Shown here: in pieces, positions 50,178 through 62,381 of the stretch
Layout: the number at the start of each line of letters is the position of its first letter
How positions within the stretch are numbered: the stretch's first letter is position 1
DNA from: Morchella semilibera
Lineage: Eukaryota > Ascomycota > Pezizomycetes > Pezizales > Morchellaceae
Length of the DNA stretch: 64,000 nucleotides
Direction of reading: 5' to 3'
Assembly (NCBI GenBank): GCA_009192285.1
Contig: CM018606.1
Span: 2,346,081 to 2,410,080 of the forward strand
The notes under the pieces: model-generated
Database searches by the model: none
The model's input: the letters and a program-made list of their open reading frames with translations, nothing else
Told to the model about the DNA's origin: nothing
Translations under genes and position numbers: made by a program

Positions 50178-50693
50178 ATGCAACCGCAGCCACAGACACT
50201 TGCCCCAGCCCCGCATCATTCTAATAATCTCCAGTCTCCTACCGCGCAGGTACAGTTGCACCCCCACCCACCCTCTTCCTCTTCCTCTTCCTTCCCTCCA
50301 CACCAACCACCGTGTCTACACGTAACAACCACCCCGTGGATCCGCTTCGTTATCGCTGCTGACACCCCACCAGGAAGTAACAACCGAGCAGAGTTAGTAC
50401 CCCTTGAACATAATTGTGTCCACACTCAGAGCTCGAGAATTAGCCCTCTCCTGGCAACCTGTATCGATGACGAAGTGCTAACCAAGCAATCTGTGACAGC
50501 TCTGCGAGCCCATCTCCTCTTAGGAGAAGAGGTCCCGCCTCCGCGGCAACAGTCAGAACAACCTTCGATTCTCACACTTCTTCCAGGATCTAACGCTCCC
50601 GGTAGTTCGAGTCCTCACGAGATGGCATCTCACGACATGAATATTGACCCGGCGATCTCGGGAGTGGGCGCACCACAAGCGCAGGCACAACAG

Positions 50694-50734
<41 letters not shown>

Positions 50735-51584
50735 GCAAATGATGGCGCAACCTCAGAGCCCGCCATTGAATAATAATTCCGGAACCTCCCCTGGTGTTGG
50801 CAGCGGCGGAGATCAACAGAGCGGTGCCGAGGAAGCCGGCGCCGAAGGGTCTGGACAAAAACGCGGTGGGAAGCGGGAGCTTTCAACCTCCAAGCGTGCT
50901 GCACAGAATCGCGCTGCACAGGTATGCCGCTACCCATCCCGCCGTTCACTACCAGGGTAACCTTAGTGTGAATAACCCACCCTGAAACATTTGACTAACC
51001 CGCAATTTTCATTCTTTTTTTTTTTTTTGCTTAATCCACAGCGCGCATTCCGCCAACGTAAAGAGGGTTATATCAAAAAGCTCGAGGAGCAGGTCCGCGA
51101 AGCAAATCAGATGCAGGAATCCTACAAGTTGATTCAGTCTGAAAACTACCAGCTTCGCGATTACATTATTAATCTTCAGTCGCGCCTTATCGAGTCCCAA
51201 GGAGAGGATGCTGTTCCCCCGCCACCTATACAGCTACTTCAAATGTCCCCCTCTTTGGCACTGTATCTGAACCATGATGCCCCACAACAGGCAGCAGCGG
51301 GTGCACCAACGGCGAACATGGGGGGCGTAGCGGGTGTTCCAGACCTGAACAATATGAACGGGAAGAGACAACACGACGAAGATCCTAACAATGCGTTCCT
51401 GCAGAACGTTGCCGTACAGGTACAGGGCAGCGGACTTTTCAACCAGCAGCAGCAACAGCAGCAGCAGCAGGCAGGGAACGCAAGCCCGGTGCAGGCGAAG
51501 AGGGCGAAAAACATCAATGGTGGCATGGAGGGTGTTGTTCAAGAGGAGGCTCCAAAGCCGGCTACTAACGGGAATGCGAACTGA
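50178..51584 (+). CDS. kapC: bZIP transcription factor, kapC type (Yap/Pap1-like)
   Basis: KapC-type factors are fungal AP-1-like bZIP DNA-binding proteins. Exons 50178-50921 and 51042-51584 give 428 residues. The start MQPQPQTLAPAPH matches the conserved kapC N-terminus. The bZIP spans about residues 228-290: GGKRELSTSKRAAQNRAAQ, then RAFRQRKEGYIKKLEEQV, with the Yap-type signature NRAAQRAFR and then the leucine zipper and LREYIINLQSRLIE-like end (here LRDYIINLQSRLIESQG). The 120-bp intron cuts the basic region between AAQ and RAF. Two polyglutamine runs (around codons 170-188 and after the bZIP) are coded by CAG/CAA repeats. The stretch from about 50250 to 50600 (residues 25-140) looks unlike kapC and may contain a further intron, e.g. 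50250 to 50428 or 50550, which would shorten the protein. Confidence 0.88.
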
Positions 51585-53613
51585 GCTTTCCCGAGACGAA
51601 AATTCAAATGAATAAGTAAAGCCAAGGACTTGCAATAGTACTGCCACGCTTGTCACTAGTGAAGAAAATGGGGGTTGGGGCAGTAGTGTACGAAATGTTT
51701 TTCCATATCTTTATAACACTATTTCTTTCCTTCTTGTTCTTTTACACCCTAATTACCCGCTCCTTAGCTCGGATCTACTTCTCGCCCTTTCATGGCCGAG
51801 CGCCGGCTAGATGGGGTAATCCTATTATACCTTAGGAGCGGGATACTTCATCCGCGCATATCAATGAATATATTGATGAAAGAGACGAGTTTTAAGGAAC
51901 GTTTATGTTTATGGAGAAACATCAATGCTGGGGATCAGATATATATACATAGTGAGGACGACAACCCTTTGTTTGGTCTTTCTAAGACTAACTCCTTTGT
52001 TTTCCCTTTTTTTTTTTTTCTAATTTCTTTTGGGGGGGTTATTCGGCGCTGAGTAAATTGAACATTTTTTTGTTTTTGTGTTTTCCTCGTGTTTTTGTGT
52101 CTTCGTTTTTTTCTCTTGTTTCAGATCTCTCCATCTCAAGGTAGTTATCTCTGTTATTTAACGAACGAACCAACAACTGCGATAGAAGCTGGGCGGCCGT
52201 TGCCGTTACCAACCTTTTGAAATTTTCCGTAAGCATCGACCGTCCCATTTATTCCCCCGACCGAGGGCTATTTATATCTCCTGTCCTGTCCTGTCACTCG
52301 TGCAGTTTTCGGCATCTTCCTTTCGCAGCCAGCTCGTAGTCTGGGCCCTAACACATAGCCACATATGTAGACATCACAAATACTGCCATTTCGCCCTTCT
52401 GCCGCTATCTCCAGAACCTTCTTCCTCCACCCACCAGCACACAGCACATCAGACAAGAGCCACCACCACCACCACCACCACCACCGCGAGCGAGCTGAAC
52501 AAGACCAGACCGGCTAACCCACGTTACGTAACAGCTTACAAGGACCCCAGATCTAAATCATGCGATCTCGCCAAGCAGGGATTGATCGCGGGGGGGTGGT
52601 TGTTGGTGGGTGGATGGATGTGGGTGGATATAAATTTGGCGACGATCATGGGGGTTGGGGGGCTGGGGATGGGGATCGGGGGCGAGTGAGGGTTTGTGAT
52701 GTGATGTTGTGTTACACATACAAGGTGGGAGCATAAGGTTATGACTTATGTAAGTTGGAGGCGGTCAGTGGGTAAAGTACCTAGAGTAGGGAGGAGACTT
52801 ACATGCACCGTCGTTTCTCGCGGGGGTATTAATGACATAGTCATACGGTACTTTTTTACAACAGCAGCAAGGAGGTAAAGTAGCTACATAGTACAGTAAC
52901 TTACTGCTTTTACTTTCAAACTTACACATCTACAGACTCTACCTACCCTCTACTCTACAGCCTAGTAAGATGAGTAAGCATATATTCGTAGAAACACAAA
53001 AAAGATATTCATTCTTAAACAGTCACTCCGCATCTCTCGCTTACAAGGCCGGGACAATGGCGAATCAAGATGAGATGCCCGAGGAGGGCTCGGGAATCGC
53101 CTCCCCGTAGCTAATTGCATCTACTCTAGACACGCGCGCGAACATCGGGTAGTAGCCGGCTGATTGACGGTGATGATAGATTGCAGTGCAGTGATAGTGC
53201 GAGTGTGAGTGCGAGAGGGTGAGTGCTCATGGAGACCCTGACTGAACCTTCATCCCCCCCCCCCCAACCCTTCCTTTCCATTCCATCCATATCCTTCCAA
53301 CCCCCCACTTGTAGCAAAATGCGTGCATGCAGTGAAGTATAGGTATCGTGATAGAGATAAAAATAAAAATAAAAAAAGAACAAGGGAAATTAAACAGGAC
53401 AAAAACAACATGGAAGAAATAGTAATAAAAAAAAAGACTAATAGTATACATTACAATCCCGACTTTGTGCCTTCAGCCCCCACCACTGACTGACTGGTGA
53501 TAACCTCTATCTACTCTATTTGCCCAAGTTGCTGGCTGGCCGCTGACTGACTGACTGGCGGTCCTGTTCAGGTGTGTTGGATTGTCCTGGATTGGGCGGT
53601 ATCTACCCTCGCA
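51585..53613. other. Convergent intergenic region between kapC and ARP5
   Basis: Both flanking genes end here, so 2 kb should hold two 3' UTRs. Short frames (for example 52300-52689 plus, with a His/Thr-rich ACC repeat at about 52462-52486) match no family. There is a 13-base C run at 53254-53266. No gene is supported. Confidence 0.5.
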
Positions 53614-56254
53614 CTACGCTAATGCATTCCCGAGCCGGTGCTCCTATAACACAACACAGTCATAATACAGTCAGCAAAAGCACACTTTTTTATTAACCAT
53701 TGCCGTGCATCAATCATCTGCATTTCACGTGAAGGAAATAGATAAACCCATGCAACAAAATTACTAACCTTCAGATACTCCACCCCCTTCTCTAGATACT
53801 CCTCCCTCGTGACCACGGACCTTCTCCACTCCGCGTCCTCCTCCACCTTGCTGCACCATTGCGCAGCGCCTCGCCACGCATCCATGATCGGATCACTCGC
53901 CATCCTCACGCCGAGTCCACAGCCGTACGGTAGCACGGCCATGAGCTCCTTCTCTAGCCGTTCCTGGAACCCGCTAAACATGCAATTTCCACCCGTGAGG
54001 AACACATCTCTGAGCGCGCGTTCACGGTCCTCAGGATTCGGGATACGGTGCAGCAGGATGTCGCTCGCAATCTCGATGATGCCTGCTTGGTCGACACCGG
54101 CCATGGCGGGCTGGAACACCACCTCAGGGACGCGGATTCGCTCGATGTTAAGGTGGAACTGGTTCGCCTCTGCTTGATTGTCAATGTCGAACGGGCGGGT
54201 GCCGCGGAAGAAGGCGTGCAGCATGCTCTTGCTCCAGTCGGACTGAGCATCTTGAGTATCGTTCTCGTCGAACTCTGGGTCGAACTGAAGGAGTTGGGCC
54301 TCGATGGACTTGAGCGCAGTGTTGAGCTCCTCCTCTTCCTCGTCTTCCTCGTCACCGCCGGTGCCGATGTTGCGGTAGACGGCCCAGTCGTCGTCATTGC
54401 GGCCGAAATCGTCATCACCGCCCTCGCCGCTGGGCGGGGGGACGCCGCGGCGCCGCTTCTTGGATGCGGGGGTGTCGGAGGCGAGGTTGGCGATGGACTT
54501 CATACGCATCTGGGAGGCAAGGGACTTGCGGTCGGATAATTCTGCTTTGAGGCGTTGGCGGTCCTTGATTTTGGCAAGGAGGGCCTCGCGGGCTGCTCGG
54601 CGCTGACCAACCCATGCTTCCAGATCCCGCTCACGGCTTTCTACGTCTCTCTGAGCTTCCTCCGCGATCCGGGCCTTCTCGGCTTCCTTCTCGGCTTTGG
54701 CACGCTGGCGGGCATCATGGTTGGATTTCATGAGTCTTTGGTGCCGCTTTTGCTTGCGGCCCTCTTCGTCGAGTTCTTCGTCGGGAATATCAATGAGCGG
54801 GAACTCTTTTGGACCTTCCTCTTCTTCCTCGGGGCCGATATCTTGTTTCCGGGCACGGCGAATCGTGAGGTCGAGTTCTTTGATCTTTTTGGCAAGATGA
54901 GCTTCAGAGGGAAAGTCGTTAGACTCCAGGAGGCGTTTAAAGTCTCTTTTTGTATCTGTGGCTGCCCGGGCCTGAATTGACTTGTAGTAATCGAGTTCTT
55001 GCTCTTTTTTGATGAGCTGTAGAAAACTTTATTAGTAAACGTGACCGAGTATGATACTGTAACCGATAATATAAAAATTACCTTTTCTAACCTCGCCTTC
55101 GCAGCCTGTTCCTGTAATTTCCGCCCACTTTCTTTCCTCCTCTCCGCGATCCTGTCCAGCTCCTCTTGGCTCTTCTCGACCTTGATAGTCTCCACAAACG
55201 GGAACTGAACGATCCTATCCTTCACCTCCAGCACCTCCGGGTCCAGATAGTTCATAACCTCATCCTTGTAGTCCCCGCTGACGTAGCAATGCTCCATCAT
55301 CAGGCTCTCCGCCTGCCATGGCTGCAGCTTCGCCGGAAAGGTGGGATATTTCAGCTGCAGAAGCTTCTGCATGTAGTCCGCCGACTGGGACCCGCCCCAA
55401 TTGAGCCTTGTGGCCATTGAAACGATTCCCTTGCCGTTGAGCACGGGGATGACATGTGTCGCCGTGTTCGACGATGACACCACGAGCCCGTTCTGTCCAC
55501 CATTGTATGAGTACGAAAACAGCGAGTCGATTCCGTAGACCAGCGACGGCGCGTTATAGCACTCAAACACCAGCTCCGTCATCACTACCGCACATATCTA
55601 TTAGCCCCTTGTCTCCCTGTCTCTTCCGCACCTCCACAGTAAAAAAGTAACAAGCCAAGCAAAGAAGGGGGTTTGGGGGGGGGGGGTACATACTCCGCCT
55701 ATTATATCCTGGATTACAGACAGCTTCTGTTATGACAATCGGATGCCCTACACCACCGTTCGCGCCAGCGCCGTCCGAAATCCCTAGCTTGATGAAGCAG
55801 TAGTCCAGCAGCGTCTCCATCTGGTCGAAATTACTGACTACATTGGCGTCGAATGGGGTCTTTGCCTGCGCGCGCGAGTTAGGGTCCGCGAACACGTCGT
55901 ACCCACAGACCGTGTACGTCTTGAGCGCCTTTCGGTCACGGTAGCGCGATACAAGCGGTGGGCAGATGATGCGTGGCGAGGGGTCGTGGGAGAAGCCGGC
56001 TCGGGTCTGCCATGAACCTAGGGTGGGGACGGGGGTGCGTTAGTTGAAGGATAGAGAGAAGAGGATGTGGGGGAGGGGAGAGGGGGTGTACCATTGTCGA
56101 TGACGATGGCAATCTCGCCGTTGTGTTTGTAGTTTGGGTCGAAGGGGGTGGTGGATGTGATTCCGGGGGTGGATGAGGGTGTATCACGAACGGTATAGAG
56201 CTTCGGGGGTGGTTTGGGGGAGGGAAGACGCGAGGAGGAGGCGGTGGTTGGCAT
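53614..56254 (-). CDS. ARP5: Actin-related protein 5 (Arp5), INO80 chromatin-remodelling subunit
   Basis: Arp5 works with Ies6 as a module of the INO80 complex needed for nucleosome sliding. Exons: 56254-56092, 56017-55694, 55584-55082, 55016-53769 and 53643-53614, 755 residues; introns 74, 109, 65 and 125 bp, with TACTAAT in the third. Actin-fold blocks are visible: IAIVIDNGSWQTRAGF (phosphate 1), PIVITEAVCNP, APSLVYGIDSLFSY, GLVVSSSNTATHVIPV (phosphate 2) and FLTGGNCMFSGFQERLEKEL (adenosine site). As in Arp5 of other fungi, a long charged coiled-coil insert (KKEQELDYYKSI through KLKAELSD-like sequence and an acidic stretch) interrupts the actin fold. The ten-codon last exon restores the conserved end EYLKEHRLGN. 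IES6 lies 1.6 kb upstream on the same strand. Confidence 0.96.
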
Positions 56255-56686
56255 TGTGTAGTGAGTACGGGGAGGTTAGTTCATGGGCGGGGAGAGAAGA
56301 GGCGATGGGCGGCGTGTGGTTGGATTAGGCGGTGTGCGGTACGGCGGTGTTGCTGGTTGGACTTTGGGCGTGGTGGAATTATTTAATTCGAGTTCGGAGC
56401 CTCAAAACATCACGGATACAGATATACAAATACGGCCACAAACCCCTACCAACAGCTGTGTCAATGATGAGACTTGGGTTACATGTAGAGCTAAAATCAC
56501 CATAGGTTTCTCTCTTTTTCATATTGGTACCATATCATATTATAATAGGTGTGTTGTCTTCACGATACTTAGTGAAGGCAAGGTGCGCTGCCCGATTGGA
56601 TCCCCCAAATTCTACAGCAGAGTAGTTATAAGAGGACAAACCATTCCTCCCTCCACCTACAATATAGCTATTACCTCTGCTACTCA
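56255..56686. promoter_or_regulatory. Short intergenic region between DAD4 and ARP5
   Basis: These 432 bp separate the DAD4 stop from the ARP5 start and must hold the DAD4 3' UTR and the ARP5 promoter. An open frame on the opposite strand (56283-56858) runs across it into the DAD4 exons and is not a gene. Confidence 0.5.
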
Positions 56687-57141
56687 TCAAACCGGTTCTT
56701 TTAAACTATCCGTCGCTATCAGGGCACCCCCAAAGTCAGCAGAAAGAAAAAAAAAGAAAAAACACAATATCCCATACCTTCAAGATGGAAGAGTACGTTC
56801 GACTGATAATTCTTCCACATCTGCGCCACTAGCTCCGTATTCATATTCTTCGTATTAATCTCCTACTCCTATTAGCAGCGTCCCCACCACCTCACCCAGG
56901 ACCTCGATACTTACATGCAGCGCCGCGTTCAGGACCATGACAGCCTCGTTTAGTTTCTCCTAGCGCACTTATCAGATCCTTGCCCTCCGTTGCAGAGTAG
57001 AGCAACTACTGTGCACTCACAACATTGGTGATGATGCGGGATAGCAGAAGGCCTAGTGAGCAATCGATAGGGTTAGTCATGCCATAAAGTATCTTGGGGA
57101 TGACGATATGTACCTTGCTGGTGCTCGTGAGGACTCTCCAT
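56687..57141 (-). CDS. DAD4: DASH complex subunit Dad4 (outer kinetochore)
   Basis: Dad4 is one of ten DASH/Dam1 subunits that couple kinetochores to spindle microtubules. Five tiny exons on the minus strand: 57141-57114 (28 nt), 57052-57021 (32), 56959-56915 (45), 56862-56778 (85) and 56715-56687 (29). They join in frame to exactly 72 residues, the length of yeast Dad4. The introns are 61, 61, 52 and 62 bp, all GT-AG. The product starts MESPHEHQQ, continues [41 protein letters not shown], and ends ATDSLKEPV; these are the family's conserved blocks in order across the whole length. No single exon exceeds 28 codons, so ORF scanning overlooks it. It sits between ARP5 and IES6 in the same direction. 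Confidence 0.95.
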
Positions 57142-57637
57142 TACTGTGTGGTGATGGCTTAGGTAGTAGTAGTGGTATGGTAGGTTGTTTGATGAGGGTG
57201 ACCTGGTTGATTAGATGCCTTGGCATTGGGACCCCCACGCCCCCGAAGATAGGTAGGGTTATTAAGTCGGGGCCCGGTATGAGGGCTCTGGGAATTCGTA
57301 GATATTATATATACTATGCTACAGAGAGGCCTGAAATGGTATTTTCTTCAATTGGTATTAAAAGCACCCTATTACAAAGAATTATTTGGGATGCTGGTTC
57401 TTAAGCTAGGGATGTTAGTTCGCACTGCTAGGAGCTACTACTACATGTTACCACATCTACTATTATCATGACCAATTCCCCACTAAACATTTTATATTCA
57501 GCGTAGAGCTTAGGAATACCATACCCTAAGCGTAAGCAATGGTTTAAAGATATAGCAAGGAACAAAGTATCCAGAATATCAACCCCCACCACCGAATAAT
57601 CATGTAGTAAGCATCTCCAGGTATCATTATAAAAAAT

Positions 57638-57700
<63 letters not shown>

Positions 57701-57807
57701 CAAAACACCCACCCCTCTAAAAAATATCCTATCTACATGTATCATACACAGGCCCCCTTCTACAAGAAGCAAGTAGCCAGTCCCACACCGCCATTCCCTC
57801 CCCACAC
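57142..57807. other. Intergenic between IES6 and DAD4, with (AG)28
   Basis: A 666-bp gap holding the IES6 3' UTR and DAD4 promoter. It contains a long (AG)n microsatellite at 57642-57697. No gene is recognised; the plus-strand frame 57108-57404 overlaps DAD4 exon 1 and lacks any family resemblance. Confidence 0.5.
57642..57697. repeat. (AG)28 microsatellite
   Basis: Twenty-eight uninterrupted AG units, the longest simple repeat in the window. On the transcribed minus strand of IES6 it reads CT and lies about 110 bp beyond the stop codon, so it could be in the 3' UTR. Confidence 0.97.
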
Positions 57808-58027
57808 CTACTTCAGCACCACATTCGCCCCCCTCAACTCCAAATACCTCTCCGCCACTCCCGGCGGTAGCATCCTGATTGCCTGGTACACTTCCCTATT
57901 CGCGTAACGCAGCCTCGTCTTCGGATCCGTATACGCCGCCGGCAGCCCCGTGACATCGCACCACTTCTTGGTATGTGCTGGATGCAACGACGGCGCACTC
58001 TCGATATTCGCGTATGTAGCCCCCATC

Positions 58028-58066
<39 letters not shown>

Positions 58067-58257
58067 GCAGGGGGGAGTGGGGTGGAGGCGCCAGAGTTGT
58101 TCTGTGTGCGGGTCGCGTCAGAGAGGATCTGCTTGAGGGTCTTTGTGCGCCGGGCAGCAGGCTTCCAGGTGCGGGATTTGAAGGGGCGCGGGTGGGAACT
58201 GATTATGTCGAGGGCATCAAGGACGGCGTTGGTTTGTGTGGTCTGTTGGGGGGCCAT
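57808..58257 (-). CDS. IES6: INO80 complex subunit Ies6 (YL1_C domain)
   Basis: Ies6 binds Arp5 and with it forms the INO80 module that grips nucleosomal DNA. A single exon of 149 residues from the ATG of MAPQQ; the frame stays open 42 codons upstream but that part is not conserved. Near the N-terminus is FKSRTWKPAARRTKTLKQIL, matching the basic block of yeast Ies6 (FKS, RR, KQLI/LKQIL). A 13-residue polyglutamine run from a CAG repeat follows. The C-terminal YL1_C domain is clear: KKWCDVTGLPAAYTDPKT, LRYANREVYQAI and the family-defining end YLELRGANVVLK. Yeast Ies6 is 166 residues, so the length fits. ARP5 is two genes downstream on the same strand. Confidence 0.93.
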
Positions 58258-58584
58258 TGTGGTGGGTACGCGTTGGGAGGTTTGAGTAGTAAATTTGGTT
58301 GTTTGGTGGTGTATGGTGGTTTTGGTTTGAGCTTTAGCCTGGAGTATGTACCCACAGTAGCAGGTTGCAACAGCTAGATTCATGCCAAGTCAGGAAGCCC
58401 ATACACGTGACTACATGTAACTGTGAATCTAGGTTTGCACCAAGCCTAATACAACACATCTATCTAGCACCTCATTCAACTGACTTGGTAGCTTCCTACG
58501 TTTATGAATCACCCTTGTTCTTTTTATACTATCTAATAGAAATATACCTTTACATCTACTATTTCCGAGCACAATCCGCCGGCT
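58258..58584. promoter_or_regulatory. Divergent promoter region of IES6 and the DUF6604 gene
   Basis: These 327 bp separate two outward-facing start codons, so they must contain both promoters or leaders. The sequence is unremarkable apart from a TACATGTA octamer near 58411. Confidence 0.55.
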
Positions 58585-61500
58585 ATGGGTCCTCCAAATC
58601 GAAACACATATTTAGAATACAAACGAAACACCGCTAGGCTTATCTGCTGGGTCGTCACGACAGCAACTAATGTTTCAAGAAGTCTTGAGCTAGATTCATC
58701 TTCAGTAGCTGTAGATCCCATCCCCCCACCCACCCCTCCAGTTTCCCCAGTAGCCACAAAAAGAGTCAATGGAAATATTGGAAAGGGAAAACACAGAAGG
58801 AAATCCCAGCCTCAATCTCCTCCTTCCCCCACGGTCCTCGACGACCCTACTTCCACTACGAGCCCAGAGATCACCGCCAGCAAGCTTGTATCTCTGTCAA
58901 GATTTATTTCTTCCTCGTCTATGAAGGCTGTACCATCGACAGTCTACAGCCTTTTCGAGTCTGTAATTCGGTCCAGAACTGACGCATATAATTTCTGGCT
59001 TGGCATAGACCTTGCAAATCCGTCCGAGGAAACTCAAAACTCTAATAAGGGCCACAAGGCATTCATTGATGCGCTCCAGGCGGCATTCGAAACCCTCGGT
59101 GGGTTAGAATGGAAACTCAAGTGCAACGCCGAGCGAGAGCAGAAGCTCAAGGAAGCCGCAGCCAATAAAATAGGCTCGATTTCGAAATCAAAGGAGCTCG
59201 AGCTAGACAACATGTTCGGCGGTCTCGAGATTGACGACATACCGTCCAACGGCGAAAACGAGGATCCAGGGGGGAATCAGAACGAGTGGCTCAAAGACAT
59301 TGTCCCGAAGCAGGGCTATGGTCAGAGGAAAAGCCCATCAAAGACACGGAAGTCTTCTGCACAGAGAGCTGCGGATTCTCAGAAACGGAGGTTGGAGAAT
59401 TACAAGATTAAGAGTGATGACGAGGCTTTGTTCGCTGCGTTCTGCTTTATGAAGGATCTTTTTGACCTCCGGAGGTGTGTGATCTCTGTGACCGTGATGA
59501 AGTGATCTTGGATGCGACTCAAATCGTAATCTAGCATCATAGTTAAATGTTGCCATGTAGGCTGATAAAAACAGCTACATCGCTGGCGTATGGCAGGAAG
59601 TTGCAAATGATACATTGAACACCGCAGTTGCAGGTGCACTCAGCAATCTGGCGGCAGGGATGGTTAAACAGCTGCAGTTTGATATCGCGGCAGACTTCCC
59701 ACAGTGTAAAAATTTCCAGTCCATCATAGATTTGCTCATCCCCGGAAATGCAGAGTACAAGTCCCTGACCGGCAAGACTGCGGCCGGCAGTTCAGAAGAA
59801 ACACAGACAGATAGTAACAAGACGAACGAGATTGATGACGGAATCCCGAAGCATACGCCAGCTTTCAATGGCCTTGATATCACTGAGGGATGTCTAATAA
59901 ACGCGTATCGAGACCTTGTCACATTCATCATTGACTATCGTAAAGGTCGCAATTGCAAGCCAACGCCGCCCATTGCTGCCCTCAGGTGGGACCCTAACTT
60001 AGATCTTCATCAGTGCAACGATGAAGAACGGAGAAAGTGGAGATCTGATTTCGCTATCATGTGGCTCTACGATATGGTGAACCAGTTTGCATCTTCACGG
60101 TTGACTGCAGATAAGCAAGTACAACCACTCGAAACAGTGGATTGGAAATCTGCGAAGTTTGGCCGGCGGGTTTTGTTCGGCCCTAGTGAATTCTCTGGCG
60201 AGGTAACACAACTAGCAATGTCACTTAAACATAGCCCTCTTATCGAAGAGATCCAGCCACATATGGTCTTCCAAGTTCAGGTAATGATGGACTCCATGAC
60301 GACTTTCAAACAATGGCACTTCCATCTTCCCTCATCGATCGCATCACAGCGCACCATTTTCGGCCCCGAGGTTCCGTTTGAGCTGGGTCGCCACATGGAG
60401 GATATGGAGGCCTTTAAAGAAGACTTTCTTCCCGGATCTAAGTTGCTCATGGGAGAATTCAAAAAGACGGACCCAGAGCGTTGGGAGTTCCCACTTAGAA
60501 ACGTGCCTCCATTAGTCTCCGAGATTGGGATTGTCCTTGGTGACTCTCTTCTCTCTCGACTGACCCACCGCGCGTTTCAGTCCCGGTTCCTTGATACCAA
60601 TCGGAATGGGTTATGGGTGTACTGTCCATGGATCTGCGGGGTGGGTCTTGCACAAGCACTCAATATTGTATTCGATTGGGGTAGAATTCTATGGGATAAC
60701 TCGGGTATTGCATTAGCAATGTTCCATTTCTATAACATCCTCCTTGCAAATGAACACCTCACAAAACCAATGCCTTTATTTGAAGACCTTATTCAGATCT
60801 TCGGCAATCAGGTCTTTCGCGGCGGCCGTCGCCCTCGTAACAACTTCTTTAAGTACTGGAATGCTGCCTCTGGTGTGAAAGCCCAATACTTTGCTCCTCC
60901 ATCGACAAAGCGTCTCCGTAAGGGCGGAGGCGTAGTCAATGACGGGGTTGAAACCAGCATGTGGCGCCGTCATGTCCGTACCTTCGACGAGCTATCTAAG
61001 CTCGCGTTGCTTGGTGAGGCAAACTGGATACCCGATAAAGTAGATCGTACAAAATTCCCAGCTCTGATTGCTCAGCAACAGCTAGTATCTGGTTATAAAG
61101 GGAAGCGCCACCTCCGAGAAACAAATACTTCGTTCCTCTCTGCAGTTAAGAAAGACCTCGAGTCTGATCTCTCCGGCCCTGTCCCCTTTAGTGGCCTCAA
61201 CTTTCTCCTGCTATTGTGGTTCTTCAACGGGCTATTCCGGAAGGTGTACGAAGGAACCCAAGAACATCCCATCTCCCAAGCACATCCATTAGATGCACAC
61301 GGTAAATGGCAAGACACGGTGTTGTATCTTGCATTATTCCCAGTATTGGCAGATGATCAGCTTGGGAGCCGTCTAGATAATGATCTGCTGAAGTGTATGG
61401 CTAAGATATTCGAGGAGGAGATGCACGAGTTTGAGTTGAGCGACTTTGTGTACTTCGATGAGAGTAGGTGTAGAATAAGAGAGAGGTCAGAGGAAGGTGA

Positions 61501-61591
61501 CGAGCCCGGGTGGAGAGATTTTGAGAAATTCATCGTTAGGGGTGGATTTTTCAAGGATGAGATTGGGGACAGCGATGATGATGAGTATTGA
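58585..61591 (+). CDS. DUF6604 domain protein, function unknown
   Basis: Two exons, 58585-59474 and 59575-61591, 968 residues. The intron is inferred: donor AG before GTGTGT and acceptor AAACAG, which joins FDLRR-like sequence to SYIAGVWQEV in frame; an alternative acceptor (TAG at 59558-59560) with a weaker donor is possible. The N-terminal domain (about residues 5-145) fits DUF6604: YLEYKRNTARLICWVVTTA, a Ser/Pro/Lys-rich linker, then ITASKLVSLSRFISS and VPSTVYSLFESVIRSRTDAYNFW. The rest (about 820 residues) is soluble-looking, with acidic tail DSDDDEY and no motif I can assign. DUF6604 proteins are widespread in Pezizomycotina and uncharacterised. No signal peptide or membrane span is seen. 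Confidence 0.85.
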
Positions 61592-61909
61592 GCTATCTGG
61601 CTTTTATAATTTTTCGGAGGTTAGCAAGATTTACTATGCAGAATTTTGTCATGGGACTTAAGAGTACGTACAAATTAAAATTGATGCTTCTAATGGCTGA
61701 CGCATGTACTATTTTTTTGTTTTTGTCCCCGAACCATTTGGATAACCATCGCATGCAGTCAGAGACTATCGCAAATGCATATTAGCGCATGTATTTATTG
61801 GACTAAAGATTATATAAAAAAAACTATACATGCCAATTAAAATATTATCGTCAAATGTATCATCTTGTTATTCAAGTGCTTGCGCAAAGTCGTAAATAGA
61901 TTAAATGTA

Positions 61910-62381
61910 CTACGGGTGTAGGGGTAAGTCTAGTCTCGTACCCATCCCCTACCAGCAGCTATAGCTAGCGCTCACCGTAGGGTCTGGAGCATTAACTTTC
62001 CGACAAAATATCATTTACTGTGTCGGTGACCCAAATGAAGCCTGACAGTGCTAAAAGTGGTTAGTTCCCGTGTCGGAAAGTTACATGTATATAAAGCCCG
62101 ATGGAGGCTAAAAAAAACTAATTTTCCCGTCAGAGACCTAAATGATGCCCGCCGGGGCTAAAAACCCTTATTTTTGTATGTAAACAGCCCTCCGACAGCC
62201 CTCCGACAGTCGGAGAGCCCCAATGCTCCCGCAAATTAAAAAGATCTCACCAAAGGTCTGAACGGTAATGCTCCAGCCCCTCCGGTAGGAGGGCTGGGTA
62301 CGAGCCTAGGGTAAGGCTGTAGACACCTACTGCTGTTGCAACCAACGACCACTGTCTACAGACTTACCCCCACACCCGTAG
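61910..62381. mobile_element. MITE-like non-autonomous DNA transposon, 472 bp
   Basis: The ends are 22-bp inverted repeats beginning CTACGGGTGT (61910-61931 and the complement of 62360-62381) with a single mismatch. TA flanks both ends (61908-61909 and 62382-62383), the target duplication expected of Tc1/mariner/Fot1-type elements; GTAC is present on both sides. Inside there are a second inverted pair close to the ends (CTCGTACCCA, near 61936 and 62295), a 13-bp perfect inverted pair (61993-62005 and 62071-62083), and about three degenerate tandem units. There is no open frame for a transposase. The superfamily is inferred from the TA and end structure only. Confidence 0.8.
62020..62169. repeat. 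Three degenerate tandem units inside the MITE
   Basis: Units start at 62020, 62070 and 62129 and are about 50, 59 and 41 bp. Each begins GTGTCGG or GTCAGAG, includes an AAATGA/ATATAA-like block, then GCC(T/C)G, then GGCTAAAA or TGCTAAAA. Confidence 0.6.

Follow-up and report, generated by a model that had tools for sequence, protein, structure and literature searches.

Introduction

Does a stretch of 455 bases on the minus strand, at positions 57141 to 56687, encode a complete kinetochore protein, Dad4, in five small exons, and is it a working gene in its own right? A sequence-only reading of the window (the whole stretch of 64,000 nucleotides that was analyzed) had proposed a hidden DAD4 gene at this position. 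We conclude that the locus is almost certainly the single-copy DAD4 gene of the fungus, an ordinary ortholog carried in a much-divided gene. The host is probably a filamentous ascomycete. The biology of Dad4 is established, and the interest of the locus lies in its gene structure and its neighbourhood, not in a new function.

The proposed course of expression is as follows. The gene would be transcribed from the minus strand, and ordinary splicing would remove four short introns. The resulting mRNA would be translated into a 72-residue Dad4 that, judging from the fold of its solved relatives, should be mostly helical. By the same comparison, Dad4 would be built into one arm of the DASH/Dam1 ring, a structure of ten subunits that couples kinetochores to microtubules.

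Gene Structure

The gene has the following layout, in the order of transcription.

57114–57141, minus strand: exon 1, 28 nt, ending with the first base of codon 10 (spliced alignment)
57053–57113, minus strand: intron 1, 61 nt, phase 1, GTACAT...CTAAC...TAG, with the putative branch A 21 nt before the acceptor
57021–57052, minus strand: exon 2, 32 nt (spliced alignment)
56960–57020, minus strand: intron 2, 61 nt, phase 0, GTGAGT...CTGAT...TAG, with the putative branch A 13 nt before the acceptor
56915–56959, minus strand: exon 3, 45 nt (spliced alignment and own-genome protein search)
56863–56914, minus strand: intron 3, 52 nt, phase 0, GTAAGT...CTAAT...TAG, with the putative branch A 10 nt before the acceptor
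56778–56862, minus strand: exon 4, 85 nt (six-frame profile search and spliced alignment)
56716–56777, minus strand: intron 4, 62 nt, phase 1, GTATGG...T-rich...CTGAC...TAG, with the putative branch A 21 nt before the acceptor
56687–56715, minus strand: exon 5, 29 nt including the TGA (spliced alignment)

Joined, the exons amount to 219 bases that read as an ATG, 71 further codons and a TGA, for 72 residues with no internal stop; the remaining 236 bases of the span (51.9%) are intronic. The sequence-only reading had given the same coordinates, exon lengths of 28, 32, 45, 85 and 29 bases, a product of 72 residues, its end residues and an intron share of about 52%, and all of these proved right on re-reading.

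All four introns run from GT to TAG, are 52–62 nt long and contain a branch-point-like YTRAY motif whose A lies 10–21 nt before the acceptor. An extra motif, CTGAT, occurs in intron 4, only 4 nt before its acceptor. In their GT...AG ends, their short length and their branch-point-like motif, the gaps look like spliceosomal GT-AG introns of the fungal kind. In intron 3, alternative AGs occur 3 and 6 nt upstream of the acceptor (the latter read by eye), and splicing at either would leave an in-frame TAG in the mRNA.

With four introns over 219 coding bases, the gene is densely divided, at 18 introns per kb. The intron content had been called extreme, which is a fair impression rather than a rank within the genome. 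For comparison, Dad1 has one 68-nt intron within its aligned part, and for Hsk3 one open frame covers the whole profile. Dad1 and Dad4 each have a phase-0 intron in mid-protein (at 56914–56863 in Dad4). By hand alignment, these two introns are about 4 residues apart, so that a common ancestral origin is at most a candidate. In Cryptococcus, depletion of the splicing factor Slu7 is reported to deregulate the transcript levels of DAD4; the passage concerned does not state whether the DAD4 introns are responsible (PMC11142667).

Identity of the Product

Comparison of the spliced protein with the Dad4 profile had been suggested together with the proposal of the gene. The Pfam family DASH_Dad4 (PF08650) matches with 112.1 bits (E 1.3e-32; cut-off 29.8), protein residues 1–71 aligning with positions 1–71 of a 71-position profile. 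The 31-residue frame around exon 4 by itself scores 40.9 bits on that family; adding the small exons thus raises the score more than twofold.

A search of the PDB with the protein returned three matches at E ≤ 1, and the top two are Dad4 chains. Dad4 of 6cfz, chain E, aligns without gaps over residues 1–71 of both proteins with 59 of 71 identical (E 1.5e-34). The alignment with Dad4 of 8q84, chain M, is likewise ungapped, 1–71 on 1–71, with 36 of 71 identical (E 9.1e-17). The third match is a ribosomal protein at E 0.79 and was set aside as a chance hit. These two solved chains are the orthologs with which the protein was compared; with both it is collinear over residues 1–71, and all three proteins are 72 residues long.

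Two other Pfam families gave weak matches. Dad1 cross-matches at 16.6 bits (E 0.0092), below its cut-off of 31, and ZW10_C2 at 14.4 bits (E 0.041), also below its cut-off. No NCBIfam family matched the protein, which is unsurprising for a library that covers bacteria and archaea. With 112.1 bits for Dad4 against 16.6 for Dad1, and with a single place in the genome, the protein is the Dad4 ortholog rather than another Dad paralog.

Copy Number and the DASH Partners

The fungus's own genome was searched (56,756,124 bases in 23 contigs), with scoring limited to the top candidates from a first pass. The Dad4 profile gave one match, at exon 4, and the Dad4 protein gave two, to exons 4 and 3 of the same gene, the latter at C4:2402992-2403048 with E 0.0666. 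No second Dad4 copy was found by either search among those best first-pass candidates. The sequence-only reading had named a better-supported Dad4 at another place in the genome as evidence that would speak against it; such a copy was looked for in these searches, and the matches fall at this locus only.

In the same genome, all nine other DASH subunits (Dad3, Dad1, Hsk3, Dad2, Duo1, Dam1, Ask1, Spc19 and Spc34) have matches above their Pfam cut-offs, these matches being exon pieces and not full gene models. Among 14 control genomes, the Dad2 and Dam1 searches each matched one, Bacillus subtilis, below the cut-off, and the other eight DASH subunit searches matched none. This looks like a genome with a complete DASH complex.

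These results bear on the proposal that the locus is a decayed or unexpressed copy of Dad4, with the working gene elsewhere. The small and broken-up look of the gene is all that speaks for such a pseudogene, which we hold to be very improbable: the joined frame has neither a stop nor a frameshift, GT...AG ends are present at all four gaps, the protein matches two Dad4 orthologs at full length and without gaps, and no other Dad4 copy was found, among the best first-pass candidates, in a genome where nine partner subunits match.

Some observations on the partner genes may be recorded. Dad3 (C5:1346899-1347054, minus strand) and Dad1 (C5:1352796-1353016, plus strand) are separated by 5,741 bases in which other open frames occur; roughly estimated, the chance that any pair among ten genes would be this close is 0.9%. 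One survey reports that 18 of 32 species have their Dam1-complex genes on different scaffolds, and that the 13 species with two or three of them per scaffold have a mean spacing of about 560 kb (PMC9998035). Dam1 and Spc34 each have one match on both contig C12 (1,576,628 bases) and contig C13 (1,575,470 bases), the Dam1 match being shorter on C12. Compared in two places, the two contigs share 99.7–100% identity. One stretch is apparently present in duplicate in the assembly, which may reflect two nuclei or two haplotypes, or else redundancy.

A scan of prokaryote genomes gave one locus from 58 candidate stretches, in a bin labelled Akkermansiaceae. By eye, this is an unrelated glutamate-rich coiled coil; it shares the short string EATDSLKE with Dad4, which we take to be a chance match. 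PMC12322030 reports a yeast lineage whose lost DASH genes include DAD4.

The Ies6–Dad4–Arp5 Neighbourhood

The genes on either side of Dad4 are as follows.

57808–58257, minus strand: Ies6 (INO80 subunit), 149 aa in a single open frame, carrying a YL1_C domain; start codon placed by eye
53614–56254, minus strand: Arp5 (INO80 actin-related subunit), several exons, the first and last placed by eye; limits approximate

Ies6 is upstream of Dad4 on the same strand, 666 nt from the Dad4 ATG, and its best PDB match is Ies6 of 6fhs (8.8e-29). The interval between the two genes includes, at 57642–57697, a 56-base run of GA dinucleotides. Arp5 is downstream, again on the same strand, with its likely ATG, at 56254, 432 nt after the Dad4 stop. 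Three of its open frames match the Pfam Actin family. Two of these frames were compared with the PDB, and the best match of each is Arp5 of 6fhs (1.9e-136 and 1.5e-24). The frame at 56018–56275, judged by eye to be the presumed first exon of Arp5, matches no Pfam family on its own. Ies6 and Arp5 are partner subunits within INO80, and here the two flank the kinetochore gene Dad4 on one strand, from 53614 to 58257.

The PDB chain of Arp5 (769 residues, u99563) is common to nine entries, for which the names listed are 'Arp5', 'DASH complex subunit DAD4' and 'Actin-related protein 5'. In at least one PDB entry, that is, an Arp5 chain carries the name of Dad4. The chain is not among the three PDB matches of the Dad4 protein at E ≤ 1, and seems to hold no Dad4 sequence itself. 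We suggest that the name derives from a database gene model in which Dad4 and Arp5 had been joined. The Arp5 chain of 6fhs is, we presume, that of Chaetomium. A joint model would imply that the two genes are adjacent in Chaetomium too and that Dad4 is mis-modelled there.

The same observations can be turned around to argue that Dad4 is no separate gene and is read together with the downstream Arp5 as a fused or shared transcript. The DAD4 name on chain u99563 in at least one entry is in keeping with this, as is the position of Arp5, next on the same strand with its likely ATG 432 nt past the Dad4 stop. However, the TGA ends the joined Dad4 frame at 72 aa, the length of each of the two solved Dad4 chains, and the presumed first exon of Arp5 has an ATG of its own at 56254. 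Moreover, Dad4 does not match the 769-residue chain at E ≤ 1, and its name is more simply explained by a faulty gene model. Fusion with Arp5 is therefore very unlikely.

Taking Dad4 as a gene separate from Arp5, it is tempting to propose that Ies6–Dad4–Arp5 is an old same-strand block in distant filamentous ascomycetes, with annotation repeatedly swallowing Dad4 into Arp5. We put this forward tentatively, leaning slightly against it; the one item from outside this genome that bears on a shared block is the DAD4 name on the Arp5 chain. In a literature text search, no paper mentioned Arp5 together with Dad4, each taken as a whole word. If the block and the swallowing are real, presence/absence tables of the Dam1 complex and lists of 'accessory' genes would hold false losses of Dad4.

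Is the Joining More than Chance?

The exon boundaries were examined with a spliced aligner written for this analysis (BLOSUM62, GT...AG introns of 45–160 nt, penalty 12). Its queries were the two PDB sequences of Dad4, 6cfz and 8q84, neither of which comes from the window. The four introns returned by the two queries agree base for base. The alignments scored 257 with 6cfz and 130 with 8q84; exon 4 by itself scored 123 and 63. When exon 4 was kept fixed and its flanks were shuffled with dinucleotides preserved, none of 1000 shuffles reached the real score (best 140 and 76 for 6cfz and 8q84, respectively), and with the whole region shuffled none of 1000 did so either (best 43 and 41); since the junctions were placed by Dad4 homology, this control demonstrates a Dad4-coding path, not an RNA path. 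Across 284 half-overlapping tiles covering both strands of the window, a score above 37 was obtained, with either query, only in two tiles, on the Dad4 locus.

Exons of 28–45 nt are individually low in information, but that short frames should have come together by chance around one real exon is a negligible prospect, the flank shuffles with exon 4 fixed reaching at best 140 and 76 against the real 257 and 130. The claim of a five-exon gene matching Dad4 along its whole length is upheld by the Pfam profile, the two solved chains and these controls.

Visibility to Gene Finders and Annotation

Longer open frames overlap Dad4 on the opposite strand, as the sequence-only reading had said. These plus-strand frames are at 56283–56858 (191 aa) and 57108–57404 (98 aa), and neither has a Pfam match above the cut-off. 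The first gave one match, to DUF3331, at E 0.065 and 13.9 bits against a cut-off of 25, and the stop-to-stop frame 57063–57401, which holds the second, gave none at E ≤ 0.1. A six-frame profile search does find the exon 4 frame of Dad4 (E 8.2e-8, 38 bits, cut-off 29.8). It follows that the gene is hidden from ORF callers and visible to homology searches, and the description of it as hidden holds in the first sense and fails in the second.

The sequence-only reading had expected automatic annotations of this genome and its relatives to lack the gene. For the relatives there are hints: PMC9998035 remarks that the genes of the Dam1 complex are short and are overlooked more readily, and at least one PDB entry puts the name DAD4 on an Arp5 chain. 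In the accessory genome of Penicillium, two Dad4 orthogroups are reported to rank with those experiencing the strongest purifying selection within it, and the authors attribute their accessory status to diversity (PMC9893605). Missed or split gene models would, we suggest, give the same picture. The same report shows that Dad4 is annotated in at least part of the Penicillium genomes, which argues against its general absence from annotations. A 72-residue gene in five exons calls for a spliced homology search. Each correctly modelled Dad4 improves the counts of kinetochore subunits, and such counts underlie arguments for the loss or the inheritance of the Dam1 complex.

Other Observations in the Window

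A bZIP-like frame with glutamine runs, by eye apparently interrupted by an intron, is found at about 50600–51585 on the plus strand. An Rfam search restricted to 53000–62000 found nothing, and a tRNA search of the whole window with bacterial settings found nothing. In the main text of PMC5579357, Dad4 does not occur.

Comparison with Known Dad4 Proteins

The Dad4 of 8q84, chain M, there named 'DASH complex subunit DAD4', has the same 72 residues in length as the protein described here, yet only 36 of 71 positions are identical. We take this chain to be that of budding yeast, whose Dad4 gene, as we understand it, is without introns. Dad4 of 6cfz, chain E, again of 72 residues, differs by 12 substitutions in 71. 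Its organism we take to be Chaetomium thermophilum, following PMC9998035. Dad1 is described as the structural paralog of Dad4 in PMC9998035; in the present genome it is distinct from Dad4, a separate Dad1 gene being matched on contig C5.
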